Below, one piece after another: positions 3,996-60,788 of a DNA stretch of 64,000 bases; within the stretch, counting starts at the first letter, position 1, and each line of letters starts with the position of its first letter. This stretch comes from an uncultured Oscillibacter sp. GTDB lineage: Bacteria; Bacillota; Clostridia; Oscillospirales; Oscillospiraceae. A program made the translations under genes and the position numbers. A model generated the notes under the pieces. It was not told the DNA's origin. It saw only the letters and a program-made list of their open reading frames with translations, and searched no databases. The DNA is taken from contig CANPTW010000011.1 in NCBI GenBank assembly GCA_947577075.1, positions 1 through 64,000 of the forward strand. The letters run 5' to 3'.

Positions 3996-6614
3996 ATGGA
4001 CAGCGGCCCAAGCACCTGGCTTCCCACCCTCCGGCGGCTGGCGCTGCGGGGGCTGGCGGCCCTCCTCGCCGCGGTCCTGCTGGGCCTGGGCTGGAGCCTG
4101 GCCGCCTCCGGCGGCTACCTCCCCGCCATGGACGGGGACGTCTACGCCATGGACCCCACGGACAACTCCCTGTTTATGGTCCTCTCCAAGGAGGCCAACA
4201 ACAGCCTGGTCCACATCGACTACGACGGGAACCTCCTCCACTACGCCATCACGGCTTCCAACCAGGCCTTTGAGAACCTGGCGGTCCTCCGGGGCGCCGT
4301 TTACGCGATCCTCACCACCTACCGCGGAGGCGAGCGCCGCCAGGAGCTGGTGTCCCTCTCCATGGAGCGGGCCGCCATGACCCCCCGCACCCTTCTGGAG
4401 CTGGCGGACCTCCCCGGCGGGGAGGACGTCGCCTGGACCGGCGTTTACCTCCCCCTGGAGGAGGAGCCCTCCGGCCTGCGGCTGGGGGGCGTCCGCCGGG
4501 ACGGGCAGGGCTTCCTTCTGTACTGGGACCTGGAGGCGGAAACCGCCCGGCTGGAGCCGGTCCTGGAGGGGGAAACCCTCTACAAGCTGAAATACGTGGA
4601 CGACGGCCGCTATGTGTGGATCGACTCCCGGGGCCGGGCCGGGCAGTACGCCGGGGGCGTCCTGCAGCGGGACGTTCTGGCCGGCCTTGCCGACACCCCC
4701 TTTCACATCTCCACCTGCCGGGATCAGGTCTTCATCGCGGACAGCGCCACCGGCGACGTCTTCGCCCTGGACGCGGACGGCTCCGCCCGGCTGCGCTGGA
4801 GCGGCGCGGACTTCATCCGGGACTCCGGCTACCGCTACCGGGACATGGAGATCTTCACCACCAGCCCGGACGGCCGGGGCGGCATCCAGGTCATCGGGCT
4901 GTGCGCCTCCCGGGAGGGGGGCAGCGCCGTGACGGGGCCCAGGGGCGTCCTCACGGAGCTCCGCATGGGCCGCCTGCGGCCCGCGGCCATCCTGCGCCGC
5001 GGCTGGATGGCCGTGCTCCTGGCCTGGCTCCTCCTGATGGCGGCGGCGGAGATCCTCCGGGGCATTTTCCGCTCCCCCCGCATGGCGGTGCGCCTGGCCC
5101 TGTGCGAGCTGGCCATGGCCGGGATCATGCTCGGCTCCGTCGTCGGCGCGCAGTACCGCTCCTACCGGGACATGCTGCAGTCCGCCGCCGAGCAGAAGCT
5201 GGAGCTTCTGGGGGGCAACCTCGCCGACCGCCTCACCTCGGAGCGGGCCATGACCAACGAAGAGGTGGAGGAGACTGCCCGGGACGTCCTCTCCCGCGTC
5301 TCCGGCCGCAGCCAATACGCCGTCAGCGTAATCTGGGACACCGACGGCGGCCCCGTCGTGGGATACGACGAGACGGTTCCCACCCGATACCACGCCGCCG
5401 ACGTGAAGAGCCGCGATTACTGCGCCGCCGTCTCCCAGGCGATGACCGTTCCCCACGGCCTGCGGCGCATCCGCAACGCCACCAACGCGGAGTACCTCTA
5501 CTTCCGGCGCATCACCCAGGGGGACTGGGTGGGCTGTGTGACCGTGGCCCAGGCCGAGGACAACATCACGGCGGGCCGGGCCTCCTTCTGGGCCGCCACG
5601 CGGCTCTCCCTGATCGTGTGCCCCTTCCTGTTCGCCGCCCTGATCCTGGTCACCCGGCGGCTCCTGCGGCCCCTGGGCGTCGTCCGGGAAGCGCTGGAGG
5701 TCTTCTATAAGACCGGCGGCGGGAACCAGATGGACCTCGCCCACATGCCCAGGACGGAGCTCTACGACGTGGGCCTCGTCTTCAACCAGCTGTCCCACCA
5801 GACCAAGGTCCAGTTCAACACCCTTGCCCGCATCAACGGCGCCTATGTCCGGCTGGTTCCGGACTGCCTGTGCCGCATGCTCCAAAAGCCCGGCGTCCTC
5901 TCCCTCTCCGCCGGGGAGTACGCCCGGGTGGACGGCGCGCTGCTGATGCTGATCCCCGAGGCGCCCGCCCGCTCCGCCGCCCTGCTGGGGGAGCTTCTCT
6001 CCGGCGCCGCCGACCAAATCGCCGCCGGGCAGGGCATGATCGTCGACTATGACGAGGGCCTGGGCGCCGTCACGGCCATATTCGACCGGGCGGACGCCGC
6101 CCGGACCTGCGCGGAGGAATACGTCTCCGCCCGGGAGGGCGGGCGGGTCATGGCGGCGGTTTTTACGGAATCGGTGGAGATCGGCGTCTTCGGCTCGGAG
6201 CGGCTTTTGTACCCCCTGGCGGTCTCCGGTGCGCTGCACCGGCGGCACGCGGCCCTGTCCCTCCTCCTGGAGTTCGGCGCGGTGCTGGTGCAAAGCGGCG
6301 GGGCGGAGCGCCGGGGCCTGCGCCTGCTGGGGTGGGACGGCGGCGCGGCGTACTACGAAGACCCGGCCCAGCGCCCCGCCGCCTGGCGGGCCCAGTGGGA
6401 AGCGGCGGCCCCCCTCTGGGCCGAAGCCATGGAACAGTTCCGGGACCGGCAGTTCGCCGGGGCCATGCGGCTGTTCGCCAAGGTCCTCCGCCTGGTTCCG
6501 GGGGACGGCGCGGCCCGGTGGTATCTCTTCCGGTGCGAGTCCCTGCGGGACGGGGACCCGGCGGCGGCGCCGGACACGGGGCTCTTATTCGATTGGAGGG
6601 ACCGGCATGGATAA
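3996..6614 (+). CDS. membrane receptor with degenerate class III adenylate-cyclase domain and C-terminal TPR-like tail
   Basis: 872 residues. One span at about 13-36; an extracytoplasmic beta-propeller-like region 45-325 (repeats such as VYAMDPTDNSL, VFALDADGSARLRWSG); spans near 335-352 and 363-385; an external sensing segment about 388-525; a span near 530-552; a HAMP-like stretch; then from about 611 YVRLVPDCLCRML, which matches the linker before class III cyclase domains. The cyclase-like domain keeps the shape (MIVDYDEGLGAVTAIFD; FGSERLLYPLAVSGALHRR) but lacks the metal-binding DIRGFT motif and the usual N-x3-R, so it is probably catalytically dead. The end (AMEQFRDRQFAGAMRLFAKV) resembles the TPR tail common in such cyclases. 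It likely senses a surface signal for the injection system (inference). Confidence 0.65.
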   Translation: MDSGPSTWLPTLRRLALRGLAALLAAVLLGLGWSLAASGGYLPAMDGDVYAMDPTDNSLFMVLSKEANNSLVHIDYDGNLLHYAITASNQAFENLAVLRGAVYAILTTYRGGERRQELVSLSMERAAMTPRTLLELADLPGGEDVAWTGVYLPLEEEPSGLRLGGVRRDGQGFLLYWDLEAETARLEPVLEGETLYKLKYVDDGRYVWIDSRGRAGQYAGGVLQRDVLAGLADTPFHISTCRDQVFIADSATGDVFALDADGSARLRWSGADFIRDSGYRYRDMEIFTTSPDGRGGIQVIGLCASREGGSAVTGPRGVLTELRMGRLRPAAILRRGWMAVLLAWLLLMAAAEILRGIFRSPRMAVRLALCELAMAGIMLGSVVGAQYRSYRDMLQSAAEQKLELLGGNLADRLTSERAMTNEEVEETARDVLSRVSGRSQYAVSVIWDTDGGPVVGYDETVPTRYHAADVKSRDYCAAVSQAMTVPHGLRRIRNATNAEYLYFRRITQGDWVGCVTVAQAEDNITAGRASFWAATRLSLIVCPFLFAALILVTRRLLRPLGVVREALEVFYKTGGGNQMDLAHMPRTELYDVGLVFNQLSHQTKVQFNTLARINGAYVRLVPDCLCRMLQKPGVLSLSAGEYARVDGALLMLIPEAPARSAALLGELLSGAADQIAAGQGMIVDYDEGLGAVTAIFDRADAARTCAEEYVSAREGGRVMAAVFTESVEIGVFGSERLLYPLAVSGALHRRHAALSLLLEFGAVLVQSGGAERRGLRLLGWDGGAAYYEDPAQRPAAWRAQWEAAAPLWAEAMEQFRDRQFAGAMRLFAKVLRLVPGDGAARWYLFRCESLRDGDPAAAPDTGLLFDWRDRHG

Positions 6615-56494: not shown

Positions 56495-56935
56495 ATGACT
56501 GTGAATATTGCGTATCTTCTGACTCCCAAGCACCGCGTCGCCTTTTTGTATGACGACAACACGATGCGCCAGGGGCTGGAAAAGCTCCGGCACCACGGCC
56601 GCAGCGCCGTTCCCGTCATCAACCGCAAAGGCCAGTATGTGGGCACCGTCAGCGAGGGCGACTTCCTCTGGCGGCTGCTGCCCGACGAGGGAACCCCCTG
56701 TCCCTGCTCCATGAAGGAGCTGGAGCGGCTCCACGTCCGGGATATCCTCCGGGAAAACCCCTCCGTCCGCATCACCGCATCCCTGGACGAGCTGCTGGAC
56801 AACATCGTCCGCCACAACTTCGTCCCCGTGGTGGACGACCTGAACAGCTTCATCGGCATCGTCACCCGGCAGGACATCATCCGCTGCCTGGCCGAGGAGA
56901 AGGAGGCCGCGCCGGCCCTTCGAAAAATTGTGTAA
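56495..56935 (+). CDS. CBS-domain protein
   Basis: 146 residues. Two CBS motifs: RVAFLYDDNTMRQGLEKLRH, RSAVPVINRKGQYVGTVSEG and LDELLDNIVRHNFVPVVDDL, SFIGIVTRQDIIRCLA. N-terminal HTH is absent. CBS pairs bind adenine nucleotides and report energy state; partner unknown. Weak ribosome site (ACGAGGC). Followed by the R5 repeat. Confidence 0.88.
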   Translation: MTVNIAYLLTPKHRVAFLYDDNTMRQGLEKLRHHGRSAVPVINRKGQYVGTVSEGDFLWRLLPDEGTPCPCSMKELERLHVRDILRENPSVRITASLDELLDNIVRHNFVPVVDDLNSFIGIVTRQDIIRCLAEEKEAAPALRKIV

Positions 56936-57164: not shown

Positions 57165-57524
57165 TTTTGCGGATCACGGCCCCCCTGCGTCCCGGCCCCG
57201 GAGCGGTCCCTCCCGCTCCGGGGCCGCTTTCCCCCTCCGGGAGTCCCGGGCACGGCCCCCTCCGCCCCTCCTTTTTTGCACAATGTCCCCCGCCCGAGGC
57301 GGACTGTCTTTGTGCAAAACACAGGCCCCCTCCCGGGAAACGCCGAAAACATTCACAAAAAAGCCGCCCAATGCAAGCCTCTCCATGGTAACTTGCAAAA
57401 ATTATTTACTGCGCTAAAATGTTCTCTTGAAATAGCGGGCATTCCGTGCTATGATAAGTGCACACTTGCAAGAGCCGCGTCCGGCTCCCGCAAAATCCAA
57501 ATCCTGATGAAAAGAGGAAGAACG
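57165..57524. promoter_or_regulatory. upstream region and sigma-A promoter of the TAXI-TRAP operon
   Basis: TTGAAA 57427-57432, 17-base spacer, TATGAT 57450-57455 with TGC upstream (extended -10). An inverted repeat AAGTG-CA-CACTT follows at about 57456-57467 and a long hairpin TTTGCACAA..TTGTGCAAA with inner stem GTCC..GGAC at about 57274-57319. The rest shows no feature. Confidence 0.6.
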
Positions 57525-58610
57525 ATGAAAAAGAAATTCTCTCTGCTGATGGCCGTTCTGATGCTGGCCATGCTCCTCTCCGCCTGCGGCGGCGATACCG
57601 GCTCCAAGGGCAACGGGGACGGCGGCGTAGGCGGCGGAAGCTCCGCCCCCGCGGACAGCTCCGCTCCCGCCGATTCCGGAAGCTCCGACAACTCCGGCGC
57701 CTCCGCCGTGGCCGAGGACACCAACACCGTGGCCGTGGGCGCCGTGGTCATCGCCCGGGACGACGTGCCCGAGGACGACATCTATGCCTTCACCTCCGCC
57801 ATCTTTGAAAACATCTCCACCATCACCGAGCAGCACGCCAAGGGCGGCGAGCTGGACCTGACCTTCGCCTCCTCCGTCACCTCCGTGCCCTATCACCCCG
57901 GCGCGGCCAAGTACTTCCAGGAAAAGGGCATCGACGTGGCCGCCGTGAAGGAAGGCGCGGGCTCCGGCGACTCCAAGGCCCTGACCTTCGGCACCGGCGG
58001 CGAGTCCGGCACCTACTACGCCTTCGGCGGCGTCCTCAGCAGCTTTGTCTCCAATAATACCGGCGTCTCCGTCACCGCCGTCACCTCCGGAGGCTCCAAG
58101 GCCAACATCGAGGACCTGAGCGCCGGGGACGTGCAGCTGGGCTTCGTCCAGTCCGACGTCATGAGCTACGCCTATAACGGCGAGCGCCTCTTTGACGCCA
58201 AGGTGGAGAACTTCTCTGTGGTGGCCGCCCTGTACATGGAGCAGGTCCAGATCGTCACCACCAACCCCGACATCAAGTCCGTGGCGGACCTGGCGGGCAA
58301 GTCCGTCTCCATCGGCGACCGGGGTTCCGGCGTGTGGTTCAACGCCGTGGACGTCCTGGGGGCCTATGACATCGACCCCGACAGCGGCATCAGCCCGGTC
58401 TTCCAGGGCTTCGGCGACAGCGCGGAGAGCCTGAAGGACAAGAAGATCGACGCGGCCTTCGTGGTGGCGGGCGCGCCCACCACCGCCATCGTAGACCTGG
58501 CCACCAGCGGCCCCGTGTACCTGGTCAGCCTGGACGAGGAGCACACCAACGCCCTGCTGGAGTCCTCCCCCTACTACAGCGCCTATACCATTCCCGCCGG
58601 GACCTATTGA
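57525..58610 (+). CDS. TAXI-type TRAP substrate-binding lipoprotein, circularly permuted
   Basis: 361 residues from ATG 57525 (RBS AAGAGGAAG); lipobox LLSAC with Cys21, then a Gly/Ser/Asp-rich linker to about 60. Residues about 66-139 (TNTVAVGAVVIARDDVPEDD, AFTSAIFENIS, VPYHPGAAKYFQEKGI) match what is normally the C-terminal end of TAXI proteins. Residues about 153-361 (LTFGTGGESGTYYAFGG, TSGGSKANI, LGFVQSDVMSYAYNG, DLAGKSVSIGDRGSGVWFN, AFVVAGAPTTAI) match the usual N-terminal and middle part. The stop codon comes directly after TIPAGTY, where other members continue. Binds glutamate- or keto-acid-like ligands in the family; the ligand is unknown here. Confidence 0.82.
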   Translation: MKKKFSLLMAVLMLAMLLSACGGDTGSKGNGDGGVGGGSSAPADSSAPADSGSSDNSGASAVAEDTNTVAVGAVVIARDDVPEDDIYAFTSAIFENISTITEQHAKGGELDLTFASSVTSVPYHPGAAKYFQEKGIDVAAVKEGAGSGDSKALTFGTGGESGTYYAFGGVLSSFVSNNTGVSVTAVTSGGSKANIEDLSAGDVQLGFVQSDVMSYAYNGERLFDAKVENFSVVAALYMEQVQIVTTNPDIKSVADLAGKSVSIGDRGSGVWFNAVDVLGAYDIDPDSGISPVFQGFGDSAESLKDKKIDAAFVVAGAPTTAIVDLATSGPVYLVSLDEEHTNALLESSPYYSAYTIPAGTY

Positions 58611-58632
58611 TCCCCGAAGCCGAGGCATCCCC

Positions 58633-58696
58633 GGCAAGGGCCGCGCCAGCGGCCCTTGCCGCATTGAAAGGGCGGCGCTTCCGCCGCCTCTTCAAT
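58633..58696 (+). terminator. intergenic hairpins between TAXI and permease genes
   Basis: A perfect 12-bp stem GGCAAGGGCCGC / GCGGCCCTTGCC with a GCCA loop at 58633-58660, and a second ATTGAA..TTCAAT stem with inner GGCGG..CCGCC at 58663-58696. Such hairpins after a binding-protein gene usually reduce read-through, giving more binding protein than permease. Confidence 0.65.
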
Positions 58697-58748: not shown

Positions 58749-60788
58749 ATGAGCGAGAAAGACAAGAAGCATCTCCCCGGCGCGGACGCCGGCGCCGCGG
58801 CGGACATGGACGAGGTCATGCGGAAGTACGACCGGGAGTCCGCCACCCGCATCTGGGAGGGGAGGCCCAAGGCCGTGGTCAGCGTGGTGATGGCCCTGTT
58901 CTCCCTGTACTGCATCTGGTCCACCCTGTTCTGCACCTGGGACCTGCCCATCCGGCTGACGGCCTTTCTGGGGCTGATCACCATCATGGGCTATCTCACC
59001 TACCCCGCCCGGAAGGACCATGTGAAGCCCAACTCCATGCCCTGGTATGACCTTGTGCTGATGCTGCTGGGGGCGGGCTCCTTCTTCTATTACTGCGTCA
59101 ATTACAACTCGCTGGTCATGGTGATTACCAGCGCCGCCAAGATCAACCCCTCCAGCGAGACGGCCGTTCCCAACGCCTGGTTTTACCTGATCCTGGGCGC
59201 GACGGCGATTTTGTGCCTGGCGGAGCTGTGCCGCCGGTGCGTGGGCCTGCCCATCCTGTGCGTGGTGGGCGTGCTGCTGGTCTACACCTTCGCCAGCGGC
59301 CAGAACCTGGCCCGGGTAATCTACACCCTCTTTTACGGCACCTCCGGCGTCATGGCGACGCCGGTGCAGGTCTGCGCCAAGTTCATCGCCGTGTTCATCA
59401 TCTTCGGCGCGTTCCTGGAGCGGACGGGCATCTCCAACTTCTTCATCGATCTGGCCAACTCCGCCGCGGGCAGCACCTCCGGCGGCCCGGCCAAGGTGGC
59501 GGTCATCTCCTCCGCCCTGTGCGGCATGGTGTCCGGCTCGTCCGTTGGCAACACCGTCACCACCGGGTCCGTCACCATCCCCATGATGAAGCGCACCGGC
59601 TACCAGGGCGAGTTCGCCGGGGCGGTGGAGGCGGCGGCCTCCACCGGCGGGCAGATCATGCCCCCCATCATGGGCGCGGCGGCCTTCCTCATGGCGGAGT
59701 ACATGGACACCACCTACGCCAACGTGGCGGTGAAGGCCATCCTCCCCGCCCTGCTGTACTTCACCGGCATCTTCCTGGCCGTCCATCTGGAGGCCCGGCG
59801 GCTGGATCTGAAGGGCGTGCCCCGGGACCAGCTTCCCAAGTTCGGCGTCCTGATCCGCAGCATCTATCTGCTCCTGCCCCTGGTGATTCTGGTGTGGATG
59901 GTTTCCACCAACACCCGGACCCTCCAGTTCTCCGCCTCCATCGCCATTCTGCTGGCCATCCTGGTGAGCCTGCCCCACATCTTCGCGGACAGCCGGGCCC
60001 AGCACAAGGAGGGCGCGGCCGTCCACTTCGTGAAGGACACCGCCGCCATGATCGTAAACGCGCTGGAGGCCGGCGGCCGGAGCTGCATCACCGTGGCCGT
60101 GGCCTGCTCCATGGCGGGCATGGTGGCCGGGTGCATCACCGTGACGGGCCTGGCCTCCAAGCTCATCAACGGGGTCATCAACATCAGCCACATGATCCCC
60201 TATCCGCCGGTTTCCATGTTCATCGCCCTGTTTTTGACCATGCTGTGCTGCATCGTCCTGGGCATGGGCGTGCCCACCACGGCCAACTACTGCATCATGG
60301 CCTCCACCTGCGCCCCCATTCTGATTCAGCTGGGCATCGGCAAGATTCCCGCCCACTTCTTCGTGTTCTACTTCGGCATCGTGGCGGACATCACGCCCCC
60401 CGTGGCCCTGGCGGCCTACGCGGGCAGCGCCATCGCCAAATCCGACCCCATGAAAACCGGCGTCAACGCCACAAAGCTGGCCATCGCCGCCTTCATTGTC
60501 CCCTATATCTTCGCCTACAACCCGGCCATGCTCTTCGTGGACGTGACCAGCGTGTTCCAGGTGGCGCAGATCGTCGTCAGCGCCCTGCTTGGCATCTTCG
60601 GCGTGGCGGCGGCGCTGAACGGCTACCTCTTCCGGCCCATCCCCAAGTGGATGCGCCTGGCCCTGGTCATCGCGGGCCTGGCCATGATGATCCCCGGCTC
60701 CGCCACGGACGTGGTGGGCCTCATCGCCCTGGCGGCTATGATGTTCTATCAGAAGGCCATGGCAAAGAAGAACCCCGCAACGGCTTGA
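58749..60788 (+). CDS. TRAP transporter fused DctQM permease (TAXI-associated)
   Basis: 679 residues from ATG 58749, seven bases after AAGGAG. About 16-18 predicted spans. N-terminal Q-like part (AVVSVVMALFSLYCIWSTLF) and M domain with SSALCGMVSGSSVGNTVTTG, TIPMMKRTGYQGEFAGAVEA, AASTGGQIMPPIMGAAAFLM, and LFLTMLCCIVLGMGVPTTAN, all signatures of the TRAP 4TM/12TM fusion permease. Sodium- or proton-coupled uptake using the preceding binding protein. Strong terminator follows. Confidence 0.93.
   Translation: MSEKDKKHLPGADAGAAADMDEVMRKYDRESATRIWEGRPKAVVSVVMALFSLYCIWSTLFCTWDLPIRLTAFLGLITIMGYLTYPARKDHVKPNSMPWYDLVLMLLGAGSFFYYCVNYNSLVMVITSAAKINPSSETAVPNAWFYLILGATAILCLAELCRRCVGLPILCVVGVLLVYTFASGQNLARVIYTLFYGTSGVMATPVQVCAKFIAVFIIFGAFLERTGISNFFIDLANSAAGSTSGGPAKVAVISSALCGMVSGSSVGNTVTTGSVTIPMMKRTGYQGEFAGAVEAAASTGGQIMPPIMGAAAFLMAEYMDTTYANVAVKAILPALLYFTGIFLAVHLEARRLDLKGVPRDQLPKFGVLIRSIYLLLPLVILVWMVSTNTRTLQFSASIAILLAILVSLPHIFADSRAQHKEGAAVHFVKDTAAMIVNALEAGGRSCITVAVACSMAGMVAGCITVTGLASKLINGVINISHMIPYPPVSMFIALFLTMLCCIVLGMGVPTTANYCIMASTCAPILIQLGIGKIPAHFFVFYFGIVADITPPVALAAYAGSAIAKSDPMKTGVNATKLAIAAFIVPYIFAYNPAMLFVDVTSVFQVAQIVVSALLGIFGVAAALNGYLFRPIPKWMRLALVIAGLAMMIPGSATDVVGLIALAAMMFYQKAMAKKNPATA

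Follow-up and report, generated by a model that had tools for sequence, protein, structure and literature searches.

The closest described systems are canonical TAXI proteins (the TtTAXI/GluR0 core, 1us4, 1us5 and 8u79, and VcGluP, 8s4j and 9ibo), which have the same two halves as the protein considered here, the same ligand contacts and an adjoining TRAP permease. Their segments follow one another in linear order; in the present protein, by contrast, the last segment stands at the front, the opening of the chain lies ahead of hinge strand 2, and the old ends are connected by a new linker. Elsewhere, engineered circularly permuted binding proteins are used in biosensors. Saposin and swaposin are natural circular permutants (PMC3320104). 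Both examples represent the same kind of rearrangement, but neither is a natural lipid-anchored transporter binding protein. Lipoproteins are common among TAXI proteins according to a study of VcGluP (PMC11574862). The BP0403 TAXI-GltS system and TAXI-GltS fusions also involve TAXI proteins of atypical architecture whose tethering is altered, but there the TAXI domain has gained additional domains or been fused to a transporter, whereas here the segments themselves are permuted (PMC12344293). A much older change, the “domain dislocation” between type I and type II periplasmic binding proteins, has been proposed as an exchange of elements between lobes that gave a new fold class (Fukami-Kobayashi 1999, cited in PMC9815098). 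It shares with the present case a changed element order in a two-lobed fold, but the permutation described here took place inside one family and presumably left the fold the same. Searches of open-access articles in PMC turned up none on permutation in a TAXI or TRAP binding protein, and the available portions of PMC11574862 and PMC12344293 do not mention permutation.

The gene described here lies at 57525..58610 on the + strand of the window, a 64,000-nucleotide stretch of a contig from an uncultured Oscillibacter sp., and the protein segments, promoter, hairpins and permease located below lie on the same strand. It encodes 361 aa plus a stop codon and ends in SPYYSAYTIPAGTY directly before the stop. 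The chain opens with a putative signal peptide (57525..57587, read from the sequence by eye and with a simple pattern), in which LLSAC at Cys21 resembles a lipobox; a lipobox-like site is present in 25/25 permuted rows in which the contig includes the start of the gene, the other 3 of 28 being cut. Next comes a low-complexity tether rich in Gly, Ser, Ala and Asp (residues 22-63, 57588..57713; block pLDDT 38-51 in the AlphaFold2 model), which gives way at about residue 63 to the moved C-terminal TAXI segment (residues 64-139, 57714..57941), running TNTVAVGAVVIARDDVPEDDIY...YHPGAAKYFQEKG. A short new linker (residues 136-152, 57930..57980; K-x-G-x-G motif, pLDDT 94-97) connects the old C-terminus to the old N-terminus. 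The body, which is the old N-terminal part (residues 153-361, 57981..58607), then extends from LTFGTGGESGTYY... to IPAGTY, and the stop codon comes at the Y of this motif, where the chain was opened.

Family profiles recover the protein in two pieces. PF16868 (289 positions) matches residues 155-361 with its positions 1-214 and residues 62-139 (57708-57941) with positions 218-289: together the pieces span the profile once with their order exchanged, and residues 62-139 alone match at E 8.5e-19. TIGR02122 (320 positions) behaves in the same way, with residues 145-361 corresponding to 24-244 and residues 63-135 to 248-320. Six of the seven PDB TAXI sequences that were matched also align in two stretches, and the order is swapped in the three alignments printed. 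Because no single collinear match over the family profile is present, the protein is classed from these alignments as a permuted derivative of the TAXI family and not as a canonical member. It is, as far as the profiles tell, a TAXI-family TRAP solute-binding lipoprotein (its lipidation putative) whose C-terminal segment stands ahead of the rest. Segment order is no part of the curated cut-offs, which are both exceeded (TIGR02122, 254 bits vs 84.35; PF16868, 243.7 vs 27), and profile-based annotation thus passes such permutants as ordinary. A sequence-only reading of this stretch had proposed that the C-terminal segment precedes the canonical start, as in a circular permutation; PF16868, TIGR02122 and the PDB alignments bear this out, and the boundaries it gave (residues 66-139 for the segment, 153 for the canonical start, the end at IPAGTY) are correct to within a few residues. 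The linear family alignment that it had named beforehand as speaking against the idea did not appear with either profile or with the PDB TAXI chains. It had also named a neighbouring gene holding the missing half: none was found in the window's own genome, nor was any downstream relic. In that genome (83% complete) no other TAXI match was found either, the nine further matches covering signal peptide and tether only.

The permuted protein is predicted to fold in the usual way. In its AlphaFold2 model (pLDDT 90.3, pTM 0.84) the elements match those of a canonical orthologue's model one for one in swapped order, which supports the earlier expectation of usual folding, with a model that is not independent of family knowledge (the input alignment contained canonical fragments). 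With Foldseek and VIA-align, known TAXI chains aligned with no more than about residues 147-361, and the moved segment was left unplaced, on 1US5 as well, which is what a permutation predicts. The two hinge strands of VcGluP are given as 116-131 and 255-267 (PMC11574862). By homology to VcGluP, the cut would fall about six residues before hinge strand 2: the alignment equivalent of that strand (residues 66-78, 57720..57758; model strand 45-57; VcGluP 255-267) would now be the first strand of the fold, and hinge strand 1 (residues 230-245, 58212..58259; model strand 209-224; VcGluP 116-131) would be the only covalent lobe crossing left. Since the cut precedes hinge strand 2, each lobe would consist of one continuous stretch of chain, one covalent hinge crossing would remain instead of two, and the lipid anchor would attach at the hinge and not at the start of lobe 1. 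This agrees with the earlier reading, in which the tether leaves the fold from a different face; the change in docking on the permease which that reading also suggested may follow from it, and the paired permease lineage does carry an insertion of its own.

These features are very probably those of a functional TAXI TRAP lipoprotein that was permuted once, folds as usual, binds an amino-acid-like ligand and feeds the adjoining permease. The sequences show that the stretch corresponding to the final ~75 residues of canonical TAXI proteins now follows the lipoprotein tether and precedes the canonical start, and that a conserved linker of 16-18 residues joins the old ends. The chain would take the usual two-lobed TAXI shape, bind its amino-acid-like ligand and deliver it to the neighbouring permease. 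The permuted gene sits at a locus that holds the canonical gene in other species, and it is inherited together with a single fused-permease lineage.

In Oscillibacter and its relatives among gut bacteria the circular permutation is genuine and heritable, and purifying selection acts on it. Orthologues in related genomes, which the earlier reading had suggested as a check, show the permuted order again and again: it is found in 45 distinct loci, in 23 of 86 genus genomes and in ten other genera of the family. The genus search (genomes mostly titled Oscillibacter) gave a match at E 1e-8 in 74 of the 86. The canonical form is found in 46 other genus genomes, with a body match below 1e-70 and the C-segment match downstream; the rest are one genome in which the match is cut by the contig (G002) and four with weaker matches only. 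Among the matches listed for the genus, no genome has both a permuted gene and a canonical near orthologue. A query spanning the junction matched in 20 of 400 family genomes, from 11 genera, and 18 junction matches outside the genus were confirmed at the ORF level. Across the order, 63 of 394 genomes had a match at E 1e-30, and only the window genome and one other from the same family (G253) matched the permuted query over its full length; the other 61 gave a body-only match like that of canonical genes (17 were checked at the ORF level, and one, G691, is cut by the contig). In the phylum (398 genomes), a doubled query designed to align any permutant in shifted register matched in 160, and all matches listed were canonical except the window's own. 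The few loci from other phyla (L068, L070-L074) and the PDB chains are canonical as well. Two permuted genes stand apart: L160 (G488) is very divergent, at 51-55% identity, and L152 (G312) is interrupted close to its end by either a frameshift or a break in the assembly. Oscillibacter sp. 1-3 (L045), which we take to be a cultured isolate, carries the permuted gene on a 1.3 Mb contig not labelled as a MAG.

Canonical orthologues, 58-69% identical over the body, occupy the same operon in other species, even in a sister species, and by this comparison the permuted gene is a descendant of an unpermuted orthologue. Where the contig reaches, genus loci of both forms mostly have the genes for the TAXI protein, a fused permease, an HlyD-type protein and an ABC ATPase in this order; some permuted loci, L045-L048 among them, show the permease only. 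The rpoB tree (28 genomes, two short sequences of 30 having been dropped) requires four changes of state, all of them forced, and rejects a single permuted clade (p 6e-71). On the HlyD tree (41 rows) the count is five to six, with supported branches forcing every one; on the ABC-protein tree it is five, of which supported branches force just one. One rpoB sister pair consists of a permuted genome (G049) and a canonical one (G013), whose loci are collinear from recX, rimO, pgsA and thrS (gene names that we assigned by eye) through the ABC protein. Promoter and signal peptide are 88.8% identical between the two over 160 bp, and the TAXI order changes right after. Further upstream, the thrS-like genes of the pair (L106 5101-6948 in G049; L093 6572-8332 in G013) agree at both ends, but their central parts (L106 ~5753-6474) do not match at the DNA level. 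A replaced tract may begin inside thrS at that place, and the differing centres could be catalytic cores of two kinds or the result of recombination next to the TAXI gene.

The likeliest history is one permutation followed by several replacements of the binding protein/permease pair, with the permuted gene and its permease probably moving between species as one cassette. A history in which the two forms go back to old paralogues, with different species losing different copies, and not to horizontal transfer that exchanged alleles at one locus, seems unlikely to us. It would agree with the presence of both forms in several genera, but the downstream neighbourhood is common to both forms, the two near orthologues were not found in one genome among the matches listed, and the G049 and G013 loci share their layout as far as the promoter and signal peptide, differing in order only beyond them. 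The protein is a natural, clade-wide permutant of a transporter binding protein whose unpermuted orthologues survive at the same locus elsewhere. Pairs such as G049 and G013 differ in tether position and hinge connectivity and have the same ligand site and operon; they would let one test the part played by two hinge crossings in opening and closing, that of the tether site in TRAP docking, and how permuted genes become fixed.

The permuted gene is probably functional and under selection: dN/dS is 0.09-0.23 in 11 permuted pairs vs 0.03-0.20 in four canonical pairs. VcGluP contacts glutamate through Y45, S75, Q93 and E125 (PMC11574862), and a manual count on the alignment pairs these residues with Y164, S191, Q209 and E239. 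The last three are kept in 45/45 permuted rows and Y164 in 44/45, the remaining row having an ambiguous X. Because these four contacts are kept, the ligand is probably an amino acid or something similar; because V or I stands in permuted rows at the positions aligned with VcGluP Y200 and M201, the pocket for the side chain may not be the same as in VcGluP. It is very improbable that the permuted gene is a decaying by-product that has lost its binding function. The divergent copy L160 and the frameshifted copy L152 might suggest such decay, but dN/dS is similar to that of canonical pairs, the ligand residues are retained, a permease gene adjoins, and in the window's own genome no other TAXI gene was found.

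The permutation can be placed on a tree of binding proteins in which both segments of each protein were put back into canonical order. From 108 rows, four distant canonical ones, a duplicate (L149, identical to L051), the frameshifted L152 and the truncated L121 were dropped. In the resulting 101-row tree, the 44 permuted rows form one clade (support 100/97) nested among canonical rows, with a single change of state; an initial 73-row tree, which had 28 permuted rows and L121, gives the same result. As the 44 rows fall in one clade, all permuted sequences found have, on this tree, one origin, within Oscillospiraceae. The details of the cut are just as uniform. The final Y is at the same place in 43/45 permuted proteins (of the others, one is cut by a contig end and one is frameshifted), whereas canonical proteins continue for ~80 residues beyond the equivalent tyrosine and in the genus mostly end in ...VPTK. 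The linker is 16-18 residues long, K-x-G-x-G is present in 45/45 permuted proteins, and VK[ED]GAG is found in 40/45 permuted vs 0/61 canonical. Convergence, with separate permutations in different genera, draws on the four changes that the permuted state needs on the rpoB tree, but it is very improbable: the binding-protein tree requires one change only, at 100/97, the permuted proteins share the cut residue and linker motif, and the permease tree recovers the same clade. Permutation by duplication predicts intermediates with a duplicated end (PMC3320104). Neither such intermediates nor a second copy of either segment was found among the TAXI ORFs of 123 scanned sequences or 35 further loci, and 42 downstream flanks long enough to test gave 0 matches at E 0.1 to a relic of the moved segment past the stop. 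Since no duplicated-end intermediates were found, either duplication and trimming or cut-and-paste may have produced the permutation. That the two pieces were misordered when this genome was assembled from a metagenome, the assembly error that the sequence-only reading had itself raised, has next to no probability: the assembly is in 94 contigs and 83% complete, but independent genomes rule the error out with the identical segment order and linker motif in 45 distinct loci, that of Oscillibacter sp. 1-3 (L045) included.

The neighbouring permease may have changed as well. A fused DctQM-type TRAP permease of 679 aa (58749..60788; TIGR02123 610 bits, PF06808) starts 138 bases after the stop of the binding protein, and a permease is present in 84/108 loci. 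In the permease tree (77 rows, SH-aLRT only), 38 permuted rows and L121 form one clade with support 100, and permuted binding proteins pair with this one permease lineage in 38/38 placed. The permease alignment shows a clade-specific insertion of six residues, IPYPPV (permease residues 483-488, 60195..60212), in 36/37 permuted-clade permeases (L022, the exception, is truncated ahead of that point) vs 0/32 canonical ones, L056 being left out of the count for its very long branch. In a weak HMMER alignment (22 bits) it comes after the position that pairs with PpSiaM 308, 16 residues past R292. R292 of PpSiaM faces the periplasm, is reported to matter for transport and is presumed to act in SiaP binding and at the arm-helix junction (PMC10942642). 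The insertion hints at co-adaptation of the permease; it may also be one clade-level indel on a long branch, unrelated to the permutation. Fixed single-residue differences between the permease clades occupy 10 scattered columns, two of them inside the insertion. A further loop insertion at about residues 132-142 (59142-59174) occurs in part of the permuted clade and is absent from the canonical permeases aligned. A more far-reaching proposal is that tethering biases opening and release, because one covalent hinge crossing is left and the anchor is on the other hinge strand, that the insertion-bearing permease has co-adapted, and that two docking systems, not interchangeable, swap as cassettes at one locus. 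We regard that proposal as doubtful.

Other elements of the locus are minor observations. A candidate sigma-70-like promoter (57427..57455; TTGAAA, 17 nt, TATGAT with a preceding TG) scores 10/12 in a consensus scan, as a consensus match only. Upstream, a gene at 56495-56935 encodes a CBS-domain protein that resembles the c-di-AMP-binding CbpB at 73.8 bits, below the 125 cut-off; it is present in the window and in eight permuted relatives and in no canonical locus searched, where many flanks are short. Between the binding protein and permease genes, two intercistronic RNA hairpins are predicted (58632..58696; fold z-score -4.4), which may control how much binding protein is made relative to permease. 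Structures about as strong lie behind the gene both in the permuted L106 (z -4.6) and in the canonical L093 (z -5.4).
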